From assembly GCA_021299695.1 (NCBI GenBank), contig JAJTEK010000057.1, positions 1-34,993 of the forward strand: DNA of 34,993 nt, given 5' to 3'. The position numbers and the translations under genes are program-made. Of this stretch, positions 3,796 through 17,464 are shown piece after piece (position 1 is the stretch's first letter; each line of letters starts with the position of its first letter). The notes beneath the pieces are model-generated. The model saw only the letters and a program-made list of their open reading frames with translations. It ran no database searches and had not been told where the DNA came from. The stretch is from Pirellula sp. GTDB taxonomy: Bacteria; Planctomycetota; Planctomycetia; Pirellulales; Pirellulaceae.

Positions 3796-4008
3796 CGTAG
3801 CATGGCCCTCCGAGGCCGTGCGTCCCCATCCGTAGCATGGCCCTCCGAGGCCGTGCGTCCCCATCCGTAGCATGGCCCTCCTCCGAGGCCGTGCGTCCCC
3901 ATCCGTAGCATGGCCCTCCGAGGCCGTGCGTCCCCATCCGTAGCATGGCCCTCCGAGGCCGTGCGTCCCCATCCGTAGCATGGCCCTCCGAGGCCGTGCG
4001 TCCCCATC
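3796..4008. repeat. Tandem array, six copies of a 35-bp unit
   Basis: Units begin CGTAGCATGGCCCTCCGAGG and end CCGTGCGTCCCCATC. They start at 3796, 3831, 3866, 3904, 3939 and 3974. Five are 35 bp; the third is 38 bp because of a duplicated CTC. Apart from that insertion the copies look identical, so the array expanded or was homogenised recently. There are no spacers between units, so it is a minisatellite and not a CRISPR. All minus-strand frames through it are open, but the products are pure repeat peptides, and I do not treat them as genes. Confidence 0.97.
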
Positions 4009-9822: not shown

Positions 9823-10697
9823 GCGCCTCGACCAACAATACACTTTTCTCGAGGCTCTCACGAGCCGTACCAGGTGTCGTTAGCTACGAACTGACCCGCT
9901 CGATGACCCCAGGCCGATGGGCCATGTTCCTGCTGATGGTCTCCATTCCCACGGCTCTGCTGATCGCCGTGTCTCAATTGACCCCAGACGAAGTCAAATA
10001 CACACTCGACGTCTCACAAACGACTCAAGAGAAATTCGTCATCAGAGACGAAACCAACCTCGCATTTAGCATGCTCGTGTACCTGCTGATCCCCCAAGTC
10101 ATGACCATGCTCGGGATGCTCGTTTTGGCCTCACCAATCGTGCACTCAGAACTCGAAGGCCAAACATGGATCTATGCACTCGTACGACACGCAGGCCGAC
10201 GCTCCTTGCTCCTGGGAAAGTACCTCGTCGCCGTCCTATGGACCAGCACCGCAGGGATTCTCGCCGTGAGCCTAGCGACCCCCTTTGTGCCGCTGAAAAA
10301 CCCAGCTCAACTCTGGCTGACCGCCTCGCTCCTGTGCCTGCTAGCCTCGCTTGCCTACGGCGCTCTTTTCGCACTGATCGGAGTGGTGATGCAAAAACGT
10401 GTCATGGTCGTCTCCTTTGTCTATGCATTGATCGCCGAAGGCGTCTTGGCATGGATCCCTGCTGTCATCAATCAATTCACCATCGCCTACAGACTCCGGT
10501 CGATCCTGTTTCGATGGCTCGATCTGTCGGTCGATCAATACTTCCCAAACATGGGATTAGCCCGCAATGCCATGGTCGCTCAGGACCCTAGCGGGTGGGT
10601 CCAAGTCGGCTTGGTCCTGCTCATCTCAAGCATCTTGCTAGGCCTGGCTCTATGGCTGGTCGAAACCATCCAATACAGCTTCCAATCGGAACTCTAA
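9819..10697 (+). CDS. ABC-2 type permease subunit (second of two)
   Basis: The protein has 292 residues with about six membrane spans: WAMFLLMVSIPTALLIAVS (30-48), LVYLLIPQVMTMLGMLVLAS, YLVAVLWTSTAGILAVSLAT, LWLTASLLCLLASLAYGALF, VSFVYALIAEGVLAWIPAVI, and VGLVLLISSILLGLALWLVE. The loop after the second span (HSELEGQTWIYALVRHAGRR) is the ABC-2 coupling region. ATG overlaps the stop of the ATPase gene by four bases (ATGA). It is the last gene of the block; a perfect hairpin at 10736-10753 follows 38 bases downstream and may end the transcript. Confidence 0.88.
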   Translation: MSASTNNTLFSRLSRAVPGVVSYELTRSMTPGRWAMFLLMVSIPTALLIAVSQLTPDEVKYTLDVSQTTQEKFVIRDETNLAFSMLVYLLIPQVMTMLGMLVLASPIVHSELEGQTWIYALVRHAGRRSLLLGKYLVAVLWTSTAGILAVSLATPFVPLKNPAQLWLTASLLCLLASLAYGALFALIGVVMQKRVMVVSFVYALIAEGVLAWIPAVINQFTIAYRLRSILFRWLDLSVDQYFPNMGLARNAMVAQDPSGWVQVGLVLLISSILLGLALWLVETIQYSFQSEL

Positions 10698-10735
10698 ACG
10701 CGACGACCAAGCACGCCTGCCCGACCAAGGACACT

Positions 10736-10753
10736 TGCGCAGTAAACTGCGCA
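10736..10753. promoter_or_regulatory. Perfect dyad: enhancer candidate for sigma-54 promoter or terminator
   Basis: TGCGCAGT-AA-ACTGCGCA is a perfect 8-bp inverted repeat. As RNA it folds into a 7-bp stem with a TAAA loop followed by ATTTT, which would suit a short intrinsic terminator for the ABC operon. Its centre is also about 130 bases upstream of the predicted sigma-54 start site, the usual distance for a bacterial enhancer-binding protein. Both roles are possible; the sequence alone does not decide. Confidence 0.55.
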
Positions 10754-10849
10754 TTTTGGCAGACCTCGCTCCAATCCCAAACAAACAACCTGCCTTAAAC
10801 TCCTACCTGATATAGACTTGCAATAAACCCAACCCGGTTTCTTGGCTTG

Positions 10850-10866
10850 TTGGCACGCGGATTGCT
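10850..10866 (+). promoter_or_regulatory. Sigma-54 (RpoN) -24/-12 promoter of the chaperonin operon
   Basis: TTGGCACGCGGATTGCT matches the sigma-54 consensus YTGGCACG-N4-TTGCW at every defined position, with GG and GC ten bases apart as required. Transcription would start near 10877, giving a leader of about 55 bases to the GTG start of groEL1, which has a strong AAGGAG site six bases before it. No CIRCE element and no heat-shock sigma-32-like promoter is apparent in the 234-base gap. Activation would need ATP and an enhancer-binding protein; none is encoded in this window. Confidence 0.85.
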
Positions 10867-10931
10867 CAATAACCGCTCCACTCAGTCCGACTGCCAAATC
10901 GGGCCGAATTTCATCATTCAAGGAGTTCAAC

Positions 10932-12541
10932 GTGGCAAAACAAATGGTATTTGATGACGAAGCACGCCAGCCTCTTTTGGCGGGTGTTTCGAAGTTGGCA
11001 AGAGCCGTCCGCTCGACGCTAGGACCCCGTGGCCGCAATGCGGTTCTGGATAAAGGTTGGGGTTCTCCCAGGATCACCAAAGACGGCGTAACGGTCGCCG
11101 AAGAAATCGAACTGGATGATCCTTTCGAAAACCTCGGCGCCCAACTGGTCAAAGAAGCCGCCAGCAAGACCAACGACGTCGCCGGCGACGGAACGACCAC
11201 CGCAACGGTTCTGGCCGAAGCGATCTTCCGTGAAGGACTCAAAATGATCGCCGCCGGTGCCGACCCGATGTCCCTATCGCGGGGAATCGCCAAAGCCGTC
11301 GAAGTGGTCCACGAACAGATCAGCAAGATGTCGACCCCCATCGACGGGAAAAGCAAGAAAGAAATCAAACAAGTAGCCACCATCGCAGGCAACAACGATC
11401 CTGCCATCGGTGATGTCTTGGCCGAAGCGTTCATCAAGGTCGGTAAGGACGGTGTGATCGCCGTCGAAGAAGGACGCGGCAACGAAACGACCGTCGAAAT
11501 CGTCGAAGGCATGCAATTCGATCGCGGTTTCCTCTCCCCTCAGTTCGTCACCAATCAGGACGAAGTGACCGTCGAACTCGAAGACTGTTACATCCTGATC
11601 CACGAAGACAAGATCAGCAACAATAAGAAACTGATCCCCCTGCTCGAAGCGATCAGCAAAGCCAAAAAACCGCTTCTGATCCTCGCAGAAGATGTCGACG
11701 GCGATGCACTCGCGACCTTGGTCGTCAACAAGATGCGAGGTATCTTGAGCGTCGCTGCGGTCAAGGCACCCGGCTACGGAGATCGCCGTAAAGCTATCCT
11801 CGGGGATATCGCTACCTTGACCAACGCGAACGCGATTTTCAAGGACCTGGGCATCGACCTCGAATCTGTCAAACTCACCGACCTCGGACGCGCTAAGCGT
11901 ATCCGTATCACCAGCGAAGAGACCGTCATCATCGGCGGCGCTGGTAAGAAGGAAAAGATCGAAGCTCGCGTGGTCCAAATCCGCCGCGAAATCGACAACA
12001 CCGACAGCGATTACGATCGGGAAAAACTTCAAGAGCGTTTGGCCAAACTCGCTGGTGGTGTTGCCCAAATCAACGTCGGTGCGGCAACCGAAACCGAAAT
12101 GAAAGAACGCAAAGCCCTGATCGATGACGCAAAGGCCGCGACCCAAGCAGCACTTGCCGAAGGCATTGTTCCTGGCGGTGGTGTCGCTCTAACAACGCCG
12201 GTCTCGATGGCGCCGTTGTCGTCAACCGCGTTCGCCAACTCAAAGATAAAAACGAAGGCTACGATGCCAATGCCGACAAATACGTCGACATGATCAAGGC
12301 CGGTATCATCGACCCAGCGAAAGTCGTCAAGACAGCTCTGAGCAACGCCGCAAGCGTCGCATCGCTGCTCCTGACAACCGAAGCCCTCGTGACGGAAATC
12401 CCCAAGGAAGAAGAACCTGCAGGGGGCGGACATCACCACGACCATGACGGCATGGGTGGTATGGGCGGCATGGGCGGCATGGGTGGCATGGGTGGTATGG
12501 GTGGTATGGGCGGTATGGGTGGCATGGGCGGCATGATGTAG
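10932..12541 (+). pseudogene. groEL1: groEL1, chaperonin 60 with frameshifting internal deletion
   Basis: Reading starts at GTG 10932 ([14 protein letters not shown]) after an AAGGAG site. The first 420 residues are a normal chaperonin, including the nucleotide motifs [13 protein letters not shown] and GDGTTTAT and the late PGGGVAL. At about 12190 the frame breaks: the original frame runs into nonsense and stops at 12293 (453 residues), while true GroEL sequence ([11 protein letters not shown]..., [12 protein letters not shown]..., LLTTEALV) continues in another frame from 12191 to 12541. Alignment with groEL2 shows about 37 codons plus one base missing, the segment equal to [11 protein letters not shown]...APLRQIA, part of the equatorial domain. 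The C-terminus keeps an HHHDHD stretch and a GGM tail of about nine units. Everything else looks under selection, so the lesion is recent or an assembly error. An intact gene would encode about 573 residues. Confidence 0.85.
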
Positions 12542-12635: not shown

Positions 12636-12932
12636 ATGGCCAAAGTCAATATTCGTCCACTCGATGATCGTGTCGTAATCCAACCTACCGAAGCCGAACT
12701 GACCACCGCCGGTGGTATCGTCCTGCCAGACAGCGCAAAAGAAAAGCCACAACGTGGCAAGGTCGTCGCGGTCGGACCCGGCAAACTGCTCGACAACGGC
12801 GTGCGTGCAACTCTCAGCATCGCTGTAGGCGACGAAGTCATCTTCGGCAAATACGGTGGGAGCGAGATCGAAGTCGACGGCGTCGATTACAAGATCCTTC
12901 GTGAGAGCGATGTCCTCGCCAAACTCGCTTAG
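12636..12932 (+). CDS. groES: Co-chaperonin GroES
   Basis: The protein has 98 residues, the normal length for Hsp10. It contains the N-terminal [12 protein letters not shown], the mobile-loop region ([21 protein letters not shown]) with the Ile-Val-Leu GroEL-contact tripeptide at about 28-30, and the C-terminal [18 protein letters not shown] and [11 protein letters not shown]. It forms a heptameric lid on GroEL in the cytoplasm. AGAGGT lies upstream of the ATG. Position between two groEL genes means it could serve both chaperonins; with groEL1 broken, groEL2 would be its only local partner. Confidence 0.97.
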
Positions 12933-12990: not shown

Positions 12991-14610
12991 GTGGCTAAGC
13001 AATTAATGTTTGATGATCAAGCTCGGGCGAGGATGCTCGCGGGCGTTGAGAAATTGGCAAATGCTGTCGCTGTTACGATGGGTCCCACAGGACGCAACGT
13101 GATCATCGACAAGAGCTTTGGCGGACCGACAGTCACCAAAGACGGTGTTACCGTGGCCAAGGAAATCGAATTGGAAGACCGATTCGAAAACATGGGCGCC
13201 AAACTCGTCGTCGAGGTCGCTCAAAAGACCAGCGACCTGGCCGGTGATGGAACAACCACCGCAACCGTTCTTGCTCGCGCGATTTTCAAAGAAGGGTTGC
13301 GCAATATCGCTGCCGGAAGCAACCCCTCGGCAGTCCGCCGCGGGATCGACAAGGCCGTCGAGGCTGCCGTCGAACGATTGCACGCGATGGCCAAGCCGGT
13401 ATCGAGCCGCGATGAAGTCGCGAGCGTCGGTGCCATCTCGGCCAACAACGATATGTCGATCGGCTCGCTGCTGGCCCAATCCCTCGAACGCGTCGGAAAA
13501 GACGGCGTGATCACGGTCGAAGAAGGCAAAACTGCAGACACCACCGTCGAATATGTCGATGGGATGCAGTTCGACAAAGGATACGTTTCCCCCTACTTCA
13601 TCAACACCCCTGCGGACATGAGCTGCACGTTGGAAAACGCGCTGGTCTTCATGTACGACAAAAAGATCAGCAACATCCGGGATCTGATCCCATTGCTCGA
13701 AAAGGTTAGCACCTCGGGACAACCCCTGCTGATCATCGCCGAGGATGTCGATGCAGAAGCCCTTACGCTCCTGGTCGTCAACAAACTCCGTGGCACTCTC
13801 AATGTGTGCGCCGTTAAAGCCCCAGGCTTCGGTGATCGACGCAAAGCGATGCTCGGAGATATTGCTGTGCTGACCGGCGGTACCTTCATCAGCGAAGATC
13901 TCGGGATTCAACTCGAGAAAGTCTCCCTCGAACACCTCGGACGAGCCAAAAAGGTCGTTGTCGACAAGAACAACACGACCATTGTTGAAGGTGGTGGAGA
14001 CCGCAAAGCGATCGACCAACGCGTTTCCCAAATCCGCGCCCAAATCGATCAAACCGACAGCGAGTACGATAAGGAAAAGTTCCAAGAACGACTCGCCAAA
14101 CTCGCCGGTGGTGTGGCTGTCATCAGCGTCGGTGCCGAAACCGAAGCCGATATGAAGCAGAAGAAAGCACGCGTCGAAGATGCCCTCCATGCGACCCGCG
14201 CTGCAGTCGAAGAAGGTATCCTCCCAGGTGGTGGTGTCGCTTTGCTCCGATGCACCGATGCAGTCTCTAAAGTCGTCGGTAACCTCTCGGGTGACGAAAA
14301 GACCGGTGCGGAAATCATCCTACGCGCCCTGGAAGCTCCTTTGCGCCAGATCGCCGACAACGCAGGAATCGACGGTAGCGTCGTTGCTGACGAAGTTCGT
14401 CAAAAGCCCGTCACCATGGGTTACGATGCGAACAAAGGCAAGTACGTCGACATGCTCTCGGCCGGGATCATCGATCCGGTCAAGGTGGTTCGAACCGCTC
14501 TTGCAAACGCCGCAAGCATCGCTGGATTGCTGCTGACGACCGAAGCCCTGGTTACCAACCTGGACAAGGAAGACAAAAAGAAAAGAAAGATCGAGGGTGC
14601 AGTGCGCTAA
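12991..14610 (+). CDS. groEL2: Chaperonin GroEL (second, intact copy)
   Basis: The protein has 539 residues starting at GTG 12991, with AAGGA upstream. All hallmarks are present: [37 protein letters not shown] (nucleotide binding), [13 protein letters not shown] in the apical domain, and PGGGVALLR followed by an intact equatorial segment and [17 protein letters not shown]. The C-terminus ends in a lysine-rich tail (KEDKKKRK) instead of the GGM repeat, which in other GroELs lines the cavity floor. Together with divergence from groEL1 (for example [18 protein letters not shown] against [18 protein letters not shown]) this suggests a paralogue with its own clients, not a recent duplicate. It folds proteins with GroES in the cytoplasm and is the only complete chaperonin in the window. 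Confidence 0.97.
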
Positions 14611-14674: not shown

Positions 14675-14699
14675 CCTGACTGGGTCATTCGCTCACCGA

Positions 14700-15881
14700 A
14701 TGGCCTTTTTTTCTAAACCTTGCAAGGATAGCCAAACCAACACCGTGTCTTCTCAGTCAAAACGGGATTACTACGAAGTCCTCGGGGTCAGCAAAACTGC
14801 TTCCCAGGACGAAATCGCAAAGGCCTATCGCAAGCTGGCGCTGAAGTACCACCCAGATTCCAATCAGGGAAATACCGACGCGATCAACAAGTTCAAAGAA
14901 GCCGCAGAAGCTTACGAAGTCCTCTCGGACTCCGATAAAAGAGCCCGTTACGATCAGTACGGACACGCAGCCACCGGATCGGCAGGACCAGGCTTCGGAG
15001 GAGTCGGCGACATCTTCGAAGCCTTTGGAGATATGTTCGGCGGGTCGATCTTCGAAGATTTCTTCGGGGGAGGAAAAACCCGTTCGCGCGTCCGACGCGG
15101 TGCTGACCTACGCTGCGATGTCACCCTCGATCTCGAGGAAGCCGCAAAAGGGGTCACCAAGACCGTCGCACTGACCCGATACGCATCGTGCGAAAAATGC
15201 AAAGGCTCCGGAGCTGCCGAAGGCTCCCAACCCGAAACTTGTCGCAAATGCCAAGGTCGAGGCCAAGTCGTCCAAGCCTCGGGGGTACTCCGAGTTCAGA
15301 CCACCTGCCCGATTTGCCGTGGCAGTGGCAAGACCATCAGCAACCCATGCTCGACTTGCGATGGAAATGGACTCAGACCCCATGAAGTCAAACTCGAGGT
15401 CAAGATCCCTGCGGGTGTCGACGACGAAATGCGCGTTCGGCTCCAGGGCGAAGGGCAACCTAGCCCTGACGGCGGACCACGCGGCGATGCTTATTGCTTC
15501 ATCCACGTCAAACCTCACCCGCTGTTCAAACGCGACGGGCAAGATCTGATTTTTCAATTCCCGATCTCCTTTAGCCAAGCTGCCCTAGGAGCCAAAGTCG
15601 AGATCCCCACGCTCGATGGCCGCAAAGAACTCGACGTCGCTGCCGGTACGCAAAGCGGAACCGTCTTTCGTTTGCGAGGACAAGGCATGCCCGACCCGCA
15701 CACCTCGGGCCGAGGGGACCTGCTGATCCAAACGTTTATCGAGGTTCCCAAAAAACTCAACAAACGCCAACAGGAGCTTCTGCGGGAATTGGCCGAGCTC
15801 GAAGAAAAACACATCTCGCCAGAACGCAAAACCTTTATGGACCGTATCGTGGCCTACTTCCAAGGCCAAGGCAACAGCTGA
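14700..15881 (+). CDS. dnaJ: Chaperone protein DnaJ
   Basis: The protein has 393 residues. The J domain ([10 protein letters not shown], about 21-90) has the HPD motif at 51-53 that stimulates DnaK ATPase. A Gly/Phe-rich linker (about 97-124) follows. The zinc domain has four CxxCxGxG modules at 164, 181, 203 and 217, and then the C-terminal substrate-binding domains ([34 protein letters not shown]). It is thus a complete type-I DnaJ. The first 20 residues are an unusual extension; GTG 14745 would start the protein at [11 protein letters not shown], closer to family length, and neither start has a good Shine-Dalgarno site. dnaK is not in the window, so DnaJ and GrpE are separated from it and grouped with groE. 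Confidence 0.96.
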
Positions 15882-15926: not shown

Positions 15927-16550
15927 ATGAGCACAGAAAACGATAAAGATCCAAAGAACAAACCATGGCTCAACCCTGCAGACCTTCCCGATGGAGCCAA
16001 AAGCGAATCCAGAGAGGAATCCCAAGAGGACTCCTACTTCTCCGAAGACACCAACGAACTCTACGATTCGATCGACGATGATTCGCCCGAAATGCTCGTC
16101 CAAACCCTGGAACTTCAGGTCGCCGAGCTGCGAGACCGCGAACTCAAAGCCCAAGCCGAACTGGAGAACTTCAGACGCCGGATTCTCCGAGACGTCGACC
16201 AGCAACTGAAGTATGCCGCAATGCCGTTGGTCACCGATCTGCTCGATGTGCTCGACAACCTCAACCGTGCGATCGAGTCTGCAATTCCTGGTTCTAGCAC
16301 CGAAGGGCTCGTCGCTGGGGTAAAGCTAGTTCAACAGCAGTTAGTCAACGTGCTGAGCAAGCATCATTGCAAGCAGATTCCGGGGGTTGGAAAACCTTTT
16401 GACCCCAACGTACACCAAGCGATCGCCCAACAACCCAGCGGTGAACACCCTGCCGGTAGTGTCGCAGTCGAGCACAGCACAGGCTACACACTTCACGACC
16501 GAGTGGTTCGCCCGAGCATGGTGGTCGTCTCGACTGGACCGGTCAGCTAG
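15927..16550 (+). CDS. grpE: Nucleotide exchange factor GrpE
   Basis: The protein has 207 residues. An acidic, disordered N-terminus (1-52) leads into the long coiled-coil helix (LVQTLELQVAELRDRELKAQ, about 57-76, on to ENFRRRILRD), a four-helix region, and the beta-wing motif (GKPFDPNVHQAI and GYTLHDRVVRPSMVVVS). GrpE dimers release ADP from DnaK. It follows dnaJ by 45 bases and is probably cotranscribed. The family signature at the C-terminus (HDRVVRPSMV) is well preserved, so identification is secure. Confidence 0.95.
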   Translation: MSTENDKDPKNKPWLNPADLPDGAKSESREESQEDSYFSEDTNELYDSIDDDSPEMLVQTLELQVAELRDRELKAQAELENFRRRILRDVDQQLKYAAMPLVTDLLDVLDNLNRAIESAIPGSSTEGLVAGVKLVQQQLVNVLSKHHCKQIPGVGKPFDPNVHQAIAQQPSGEHPAGSVAVEHSTGYTLHDRVVRPSMVVVSTGPVS

Positions 16551-16960: not shown

Positions 16961-16985
16961 AGTCTTGATAAACCAGTAGTCAGAC

Positions 16986-17067
16986 GACGCGCAAGCGTCG
17001 GCGTCTTCTCCATGGTAGAGCCATTGTCCCCAATGGCTCTACCCGACGCGCAAGCGTCGGCGTCTTC
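16986..17067. repeat. 23-bp direct repeats flanking a 13-bp perfect hairpin
   Basis: The 23-bp sequence starting GACGCGCAAGCGTCGGCGTC occurs at 16986-17008 and 17045-17067; each copy folds by itself (GACGC-GCAA-GCGTC). Between them GGTAGAGCCATTG (17014-17026) pairs perfectly with CAATGGCTCTACC (17031-17043) around a TCCC loop. The block follows the FmdB-like gene by 25 bases and could end the chaperone transcript, though there is no U-run. Confidence 0.85.
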
Positions 17068-17108
17068 GGTTTTCGGCTGTTTTGTCTCACCAGCCACAGT
17101 CACTTCAA

Positions 17109-17140
17109 GCGTCGATCGATTCGGGACAATCGATCGACGC
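17109..17140. repeat. Perfect 13-bp inverted repeat hairpin
   Basis: GCGTCGATCGATT (17109-17121) and AATCGATCGACGC (17128-17140) are exact reverse complements with a 6-base loop. It lies between convergent genes (FmdB-like plus strand, DUF1552 minus strand), where a bidirectional terminator would be expected, but no flanking T-run is present. Confidence 0.75.
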
Positions 17141-17177
17141 GCATTGACCGAGTGCGAGGAGGGGACTTTACACCAGT

Positions 17178-17415
17178 CAAAAACGCTCGATCGAGCACTT
17201 CGGTCCAATGCTTTGTTCGTGCTTCTTCTCGTACTCGTACTCAGCATCGCGGTACTCGTACTCGTACTCGAAGCGATCCAGTATAGCAATCCGACCCATT
17301 GACCCACAAGTAGTCGCGAACTGCCTCGATCAACGATCGGCATCGCCGAGGTTCAAACAGCCATCGAGTACGAGTACCGTTTCACTGAGTACCGCTTCGC
17401 TGAGTACGAGTACGA
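17178..17415 (-). repeat. Dispersed repeat element A with (CGTACT)n ends
   Basis: TCGTACTCGTACTCAGC (17229-17245) is repeated as an exact reverse complement at 17399-17415, and further GTACTC/GAGTAC runs lie inside both arms. The part at 17178-17245 aligns with 21527-21600 of element B. On the minus strand both carry an open tail rich in alternating E and Y or H, ending alike: EYEYEKKHEQ...PK...ERF-stop here and EHEHEHEKQPEQ...PK...GRF-stop in B. That suggests a decayed coding repeat. No transposase is encoded. Confidence 0.7.
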
Positions 17416-17464
17416 CGAAATCCGATGCGAGGGCACGATCTACCATTTCAGCGCGGTTAACAGA

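Follow-up and report, generated by a model that had tools for sequence, protein, structure and literature searches.

The groEL1 locus

The window, a stretch of 34,993 nucleotides from the planctomycete Pirellula sp. (GCA_021299695.1, contig JAJTEK010000057.1, positions 1 to 34,993), carries a chaperonin cluster in which groEL1, groES and groEL2 are followed by dnaJ and grpE. This analysis concerns the sigma-54 (RpoN) promoter element in front of groEL1 and the way in which it may be activated. The source genome consists of 229 contigs (5,492,797 bases) and encodes RpoN (PF04552, E 6e-60), and its nearest named relatives are metagenome-assembled genomes labelled Pirellula sp. or Planctomycetota. 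Upstream of the element lies an open reading frame ending at 10697, which itself follows an ABC-transporter gene. The features of the groEL1 region are as follows.

10748..10762, + strand: degenerate upstream enhancer, given as the frame of a 15-bp palindrome with the right half only, TTTTGGCAG (10754-10762); offset -103 from the T of TGGCA, or -129 to -115 from the predicted +1
10850..10866, + strand: sigma-54 -24/-12 promoter element, from consensus match and conservation
10877, + strand: transcription start (+1) as predicted from the -24/-12 spacing, 12 nt past the GC
10891..10898, + strand: downstream half-site CTGCCAAA at +15, the same half-site as in the enhancer
10920..10925, + strand: ribosome-binding site AAGGAG, read directly
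10932..12541, + strand: groEL1 with a GTG start; the first part stops at 12291-12293 and the rest continues in another frame to 12541
12636..12932, + strand: groES (Cpn10, PF00166)
12991..14610, + strand: groEL2 (PF00118)

An earlier note on this DNA had described a perfect sigma-54 promoter driving the whole cluster, and its description of the element is borne out by direct reading of the plus strand. TTGGCACGCGGATTGCT at 10850-10866 has its GG at 10852-10853 and its GC at 10864-10865, which is the exact -24/-12 distance in a TGGCAC-N5-TTGCW context, and the GTG start codon of groEL1 at 10932 lies 55 bases past the predicted +1. The element has no mismatch to the consensus TGGCACGNNNNTTGCW, and every other site found in a scan of the window has at least two. 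The whole genome contains only two perfect matches, the groEL1 element and one on contig C144 that precedes an hsp20 gene (PF00011) and has an exact palindrome at offset 44.

The note had also seen no trace of the repressor element CIRCE (controlling inverted repeat of chaperone expression), and with up to three mismatches in the 12 core bases there is indeed no match in the groEL1 promoter region (10197 to 11765). Over the whole window 23 matches were counted at this threshold compared to a shuffle mean of 16.5, and 8 of 100 shuffles reached 23. A genome-wide search was set aside because the pattern is too loose to inform (at least 179 matches versus at least 127 for the reversed pattern, on each strand).

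Conservation of the promoter

The motif alone is weak evidence, since at one mismatch or fewer the genome holds 67 real and 48 reversed matches, and it is conservation that carries the promoter claim. The region before groEL1 was compared in three slightly overlapping sets, namely 30 relatives, 80 named loci (some of which are contigs of the relatives) and 60 genomes of the same class outside the order, taken from the top of a list of 91. A best match with two mismatches or fewer was present at 76 of the 80 named loci (28 with none, 31 with one and 17 with two, the other four having three), compared to 2.7% in shuffled sequence. The same threshold was reached in 49 of the 60 class genomes (shuffled 2%) and in 29 of the 30 relatives; for the other relative (L052) the available upstream sequence is only 34 bases long. 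Control regions at the same loci gave chance values, 2/72 before groES and 3/56 before dnaJ, where all three matches had two mismatches and none was better. Because the distance from the promoter to the start codon varies from 78 to 319 bases, it is the promoter itself that is conserved and not a fixed leader.

The alternative that the -24/-12 match arose by chance and that groEL1 is read from another promoter gains something from the genome counts, which barely exceed the reversed control. Against it stand the conservation at 76/80 and 49/60 loci, where 2-3% is expected, and the composite pattern described below, whose reversed control gave no hit in 148 and 294 genomes; we consider this alternative extremely unlikely. 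The element is very probably a genuine and functional sigma-54 promoter as judged from its conservation. The scan upstream of groEL in related planctomycetes that the earlier note had proposed thus found the element retained, and the lack of conservation that would have spoken against a sigma-54 promoter was not observed.

Two further comparisons were tried as controls. A groEL2 control (23/80 at two mismatches or fewer) was discarded as the query had probably picked groEL1 itself in truncated loci. Separate third groEL copies showed neither the promoter nor the palindrome at two mismatches or fewer (0/20 for each). A third copy can follow groES in an operon, in which case the palindrome and the promoter precede groES; this is clear in L314 and indicated by position in L304, and L303 has a palindrome with no promoter near. 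The third copies therefore inform only on the 350-400 bases scanned beside groEL and do not stand for a chaperonin free of sigma-54, and the groES and dnaJ regions were used instead.

An inverted repeat upstream of the promoter

The earlier note had supposed that an activator links this promoter to a signal, and the analysis yielded candidates for both an enhancer and the protein that binds it. The putative enhancer is an inverted repeat, CTGYCA-N3-TGRCAG, that begins some 90, 102 or 112 bp ahead of the -24 box. With at most one mismatch in 12 it is present in 58 of the 60 class genomes (shuffled 0.4%), usually beginning 89-95 bases ahead of the T in TGGCA, and with at most two mismatches within 180 bases it is present at 77 of 101 distinct, mostly Pirellulales promoters (shuffled 1.7%), with offset peaks near -91, -102 and -112. 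At one mismatch or fewer the control regions have it in 2/72 (groES) and 2/56 (dnaJ) cases.

The offsets of about 90, 102 and 112 place the repeat on one face of the helix. The 59 distances measured with the composite pattern peak at 89-94, 101-104 and 111-113, and they give R=0.48 at a period of 10.5 bp, a value reached in 0 of 2000 uniform simulations, although this statistic is not corrected for relatedness. Upstream activating sequences of sigma-54 promoters are dyads that stand in helical phase some 100-150 bp before +1, and such a dyad is found in the relatives; the window keeps a half-site only. By its position and phasing the repeat looks like an enhancer for a bacterial enhancer-binding protein (bEBP) that works by DNA looping.

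Several points weigh against this reading. Because the genomes share ancestry, the shuffles and simulations, including the phasing statistic, make the results look more significant than they are. With a period anywhere from 9.5 to 11.5 bp the observed value was likewise reached in 0/2000 simulations, and the 101-promoter set fits 11.5 slightly best. At two mismatches the repeat occurs before groES in 18/72 cases, which is too common to count. The palindrome alone is unspecific, with 64 exact matches (counted per strand) versus 33 for the reversed pattern in 14 genomes, so that single palindromes may be chance, and one exact palindrome (L311) lies inside the coding sequence of another bEBP. Finally, the window's own enhancer is the half-site just mentioned. 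As a separate observation, one genome (G094, L300) has an exact palindrome before dnaK with no recognised promoter within 200 bases.

Genes that share the putative enhancer and the promoter

The palindrome and the promoter were then searched as one composite pattern, with the reversed pattern as the control. Among the 148 class genomes, 51 have this composite (56 hits listed; reversed control 0/148), as do 36 of the 294 genomes of a phylum sample (reversed control 0). The 36 include 24 of the 273 genomes in the sample that lie outside the class. The window genome is not among the matches because its groEL1 enhancer is degenerate. We inspected 59 hits, 38 of the 56 from the class listing and 21 of 29 outside the class, for a gene on the same strand within 1500 bases downstream. 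The gene was groEL or groES in 32 cases, hsp20 in 13 and dnaK in 10, the hsp20 assignment at L378 and L412 resting on about 25% identity only and the identity of Hsp20 and DnaK having been checked with Pfam on examples. Four hits (L402, L403, L404 and L413) had no reference chaperone downstream. The 23 hsp20 and dnaK hits are independent evidence because the pattern was derived from groEL1. The groEL1 promoter thus seems to belong to a sigma-54 heat-shock regulon of planctomycetes that has its own putative enhancer.

Some other occurrences are worth recording. In two related genomes (L402 and L403) the composite precedes a gene of about 520 amino acids that matches none of the tested chaperones. 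In the window genus the promoter together with CTGTCA at the same spacing is found before two further kinds of gene (L152, L170 and L160), one AlgH-like (PF02622, L170) and one resembling a membrane protease (L160, judged by eye). Sites in which TGGCACGATATTTGCGC is followed by CTGCCA are present in several copies (seven in G023 and three in G014) and resemble a dispersed repeat in which a sigma-54-like motif is included; such hits in G004, G010, G011, G014 and G023 (loci including L161, L162, L164 and L165) were set aside for this reason.

The half-sites of the window genus

In the genus of the window the repeat before groEL1 is degenerate. Of 20 groEL1 promoters, 18 have TGRCAG at a phased position (-90, -92 or -103) and none has the left half, and all 20 have CTGCCA 40-41 bases downstream of the first T of the promoter. 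In the window these half-sites are TGRCAG at 10757-10762 and CTGCCA at 10891-10896. The downstream half is wider than the genus, since CTGYCA is found 39-44 bases after the first T at 81 of 98 distinct promoters, and one lineage (g37) has it roughly a helical turn later, at 52. Six of the eight hsp20 promoters examined in the genus have the full palindrome at offset 44 (+19 to +33), and these six have no upstream palindrome with two mismatches or fewer; the other two (L150 and L166) have neither a downstream nor an upstream palindrome. It appears from these positions that an enhancer-like site can stand downstream of the promoter in this genus, where it may activate, bridge both half-sites or limit expression.

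Sites just past the start of transcription are typical of operators, and the full palindrome at +19 to +33 of the six hsp20 promoters and the half-site at +15 of groEL1 would suit a repressor of the heat-shock genes comparable to HrcA on CIRCE. In most genomes, however, the site is about 100-140 bp upstream of +1 and in helical phase, where bEBP sites lie. A sigma-54 promoter requires an activator in any case, and the site accompanies a bEBP gene, so we regard a repressor operator as unlikely.

The +15 element could also act in the 5' leader RNA as a stem-loop (loop CUGCCAA) that affects mRNA stability or translation. The flanks in the window can pair (GUCCGA/UCGGGC), and the distance of the element is fixed to the promoter and not to the start codon. 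The flanks show no covariation in 69 sequences, however, and this reading was rejected on that ground. Additionally, Rfam gave no gathering-level match in the window, its one match in the promoter region being meaningless (E 2.7), the g37 element one helical turn further suits DNA binding, and in hsp20 the same bases would form the stem and not the loop. A role in RNA is therefore very improbable, even more so than a repressor site.

A candidate activator

The genome contains nine strong bEBP matches. One of them, P0004, has the domains REC, Sigma54_activat and HTH_8, that is, a receiver, a sigma-54 AAA+ domain and a Fis-type helix-turn-helix (HTH), and its closest solved chains are 4l4u and 1ny5. 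The earlier note had suggested a search for an enhancer-binding protein gene with conserved co-occurrence, and an ortholog of P0004 is present in all 33 genomes searched, with best matches of 49-88% identity compared to 46% or less for paralogs among the matches listed (ortholog loci L176 and L321-L350). The HTH (GNREEAA-MLGIGERTLYRKIK) is near-invariant in 30 aligned orthologs.

The palindrome also points to this protein. Two of the exact sites in the search of 14 genomes directly precede bEBP genes, each of which is a P0004 ortholog. When the 450 bases before the receiver core were scanned, 5 of 33 orthologs, from four lineages, had the palindrome with one mismatch or fewer (shuffled 0.3% each; one locus, L348, was skipped as it has too little upstream DNA). 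None of the 14 paralogs with an assignable position had it, the other 9 of the 23 being left out. At 12 of 30 ortholog loci the upstream DNA codes for a kinase H-box on the same strand, and the only such kinase that was examined (L308) has 246 amino acids and consists of HisKA and HATPase_c only. Taken together, we lean slightly towards P0004 as the activator and consider it the best candidate, and its binding to the repeat is something that we infer from these associations.

Other observations count against P0004. Two of the five ortholog sites (G026 and G061) were found by the palindrome search itself and two others (G104 and G085) belong to one genus, so that independent support comes from three genomes in two lineages. 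No palindrome at two mismatches or fewer precedes 26 of the 33 orthologs, and in the window genome the P0004 gene has neither a palindrome with fewer than two mismatches nor a kinase beside it. In 18 of 30 orthologs, P0004 included, the loop that contacts sigma-54 has the D form GAFTDA; all 18 are from the order of the window, and the 12 with the canonical GAFTGA are from other orders of the class.

It is therefore possible, if not the explanation that we would choose, that the promoter and the enhancer are real but that a different one of the nine bEBPs serves as the activator, with P0004 sharing the site or regulating something else. An example of such an activator is the 370-residue protein of L172, which by eye has no N-terminal sensor domain. 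The number of bEBPs in the genome, the lack of a good repeat or a kinase beside P0004 and the small share of orthologs with the site, two of them found through it, all fit this alternative. The occurrence of the site before P0004 orthologs in four lineages and before none of the placed paralogs, and an ortholog with a near-invariant HTH in every genome searched, argue for P0004.

Proposed mechanism

We consider it probable that the combination of a sigma-54 heat-shock operon, an enhancer and an NtrC-family activator is the best joint explanation. RpoN-polymerase would wait at the -24/-12 element as a closed complex, and an NtrC-family activator would bind CTGYCA-N3-TGRCAG, beginning some 90-112 bp ahead of the -24 box, reach the polymerase through DNA looping and drive the formation of the open complex. 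Since the same site and promoter are found elsewhere before groES-groEL, dnaK and hsp20, sigma-54 and one activator would here play the part that sigma-32 or HrcA has elsewhere. The likeliest activator would be P0004, phosphorylated by the small histidine kinase whose gene adjoins it in several relatives. In the genus of the window the arrangement appears to have drifted, with groEL1 keeping a phased right half-site upstream and a left half-site at +15, and most of the hsp20 promoters seen having the full palindrome at +19 to +33.

The sequences provide the promoter, the putative enhancer and its phasing, the shared targets, an ortholog that is universal among the genomes searched and, in four lineages, a repeat that precedes the gene of the regulator; heat or misfolding as the signal and a function for the downstream half-site are proposals.

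More tentatively, general heat shock in planctomycetes (groEL, groES, dnaK and hsp20) could run mainly through sigma-54 and a phosphorylated NtrC-type regulator and not through sigma-32 or HrcA. The small kinase, which has no recognised sensor domain, would then sense folding stress directly or through chaperone occupancy, and in the genus of the window the enhancer would have been split or moved downstream, with the activator acting from downstream or bridging the halves.

Extent of the probable sigma-54 operon

The cluster continues beyond groEL2 with the following features.

14682..14712, + strand: intrinsic terminator between groEL2 and dnaJ, a 10-pair stem and seven T
14745..15881, + strand: dnaJ; the GTG at 14745 is the inferred start, the listed ATG at 14700 falling inside the terminator
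15927..16550, + strand: grpE (PF01025)

The terminator has a folding energy of -13.3 kcal/mol and a z of -4.1. The terminator scan overall was at chance (11 found, 10.2 expected), and this one rests on its stem, the seven T and z. Of the named loci, 56 extend as far as dnaJ, and 21 of these have a terminator-like structure between groEL2 and dnaJ. Because of the terminator before dnaJ the five genes do not appear to form one unit, and the earlier suggestion that the whole groEL-groES-groEL-dnaJ-grpE block depends on one promoter is not supported. The sigma-54 unit is most likely groEL1-groES-groEL2, with dnaJ-grpE predicted to lie outside it or to receive at most read-through. The promoter matches before dnaJ are at chance (3/56).

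Relation to known systems

Heat-shock control in bacteria is usually described in terms of activation through sigma-32 or repression through HrcA, CtsR or HspR, and the HrcA/CIRCE and sigma-32 systems control the same target genes as those considered here. They differ from the proposed sigma-54 and enhancer activation, and the groEL1 promoter region is without CIRCE. One of several groE copies of Bradyrhizobium, groESL3, is controlled by NifA and is tied to nitrogen fixation. Such NifA control goes with the site TGT-N10-ACA and a nif context. The earlier note had drawn the Bradyrhizobium parallel, which holds in that sigma-54 polymerase transcribes a groE operon from a -24/-12 promoter; it does not extend to the targets, as planctomycete groEL/groES, dnaK and hsp20 share one type of putative enhancer, nor to the regulator, the candidate being a response regulator. 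The RpoN dependence of groESL3 is described for Bradyrhizobium japonicum (PMC4842269).

Among individual bEBPs, NorR of E. coli has a GAF sensor for nitric oxide and the core site GTCA-N3-TGAC. NorR and P0004 are both bEBPs with a Fis-type HTH, and the palindromes share the geometry GYCA-N3-TGRC, whereas P0004 has a receiver in place of the GAF domain and the target genes are different. The NtrC and NtrC1 family has the same REC, sigma-54 AAA+ and Fis HTH domains as P0004, and none of its members is named as a heat-shock regulator in the material examined. Regulators of the FlrC/FleQ type use sites downstream of the start at flagellar genes. Downstream sites are likewise found at hsp20 in the genus of the window, where they are close (+15/+19) and nearly fixed in position.

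A 2025 study (PMC12316311) reported an enrichment of the clusters of orthologous groups (COGs) for GroEL, GroES, IbpA, GrpE, DnaJ and DnaK at sigma-54 promoters predicted in Planctomycetia, more weakly in Phycisphaerae, and also in Bacteroidota. It makes the same claim of a regulon at the level of promoter prediction and COGs, so that the promoter half of our finding is already in print in aggregate. The terms 'upstream activating', 'UAS' and 'inverted repeat' do not occur in its main text, and no activator named for these genes was seen in it. Our literature search found no publication naming an enhancer or an activator of planctomycete heat-shock genes, and the putative enhancer CTGYCA-N3-TGRCAG is new here.

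In Rhodopirellula baltica heat induces the genes for Cpn60, Cpn10, GroEL, DnaJ, GrpE, DnaK, Hsp20 and ClpB (PMC2754498). From this induction, heat or misfolding seems a likelier signal than a nutrient, so that only the first half of the note's suggestion of a specific stress or nutrient signal is favoured. The same study reports that R. baltica has both rpoH and rpoN, that neither is regulated by heat and that rpoN falls at high salinity (PMC2754498). Another sigma factor may therefore share the heat-shock work, which counts against the proposed mechanism. If the proposed mechanism is correct, it would fit the lack of induction of rpoN and rpoH under heat shock (PMC2754498). It would also mean that the main chaperones of the phylum are under enhancer-dependent sigma-54 control, which is unusual for bacteria, and that protein folding is tied to an ATP-driven, tightly off promoter and a two-component signal. 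Since one site and one candidate regulator are named, the proposal is directly testable in cultured planctomycetes, and the apparent move of the enhancer from upstream to downstream in one genus would be a natural experiment on how bEBPs depend on the position of their sites. Overall, the earlier interpretation was right on sigma-54, unsupported on the extent of the operon and too narrow, and it is in this sense partly supported.

Other observations in the window

The groEL1 frame is broken near 12190 (12184-12191, after residue ~421), where about 106 bases are missing compared to two close congeners, and this may be an assembly error or real decay. The C-terminus of GroEL1 (12430-12541) is a His-rich tail with GGM repeats, and that of GroEL2 (14560-14610) is without such a tail. 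Elsewhere in the window, GCCCTCCGAGGCCGTGCGTCC is present five times at 3805-4003, mostly with a spacing of 35 bases, as a tandem repeat, and repeats of CGACGCGCAAGCGTCGGCGTCTTC and ACTCGTACTCG are found at 16985-17420, downstream of a gene for an FmdB-like zinc-ribbon protein.

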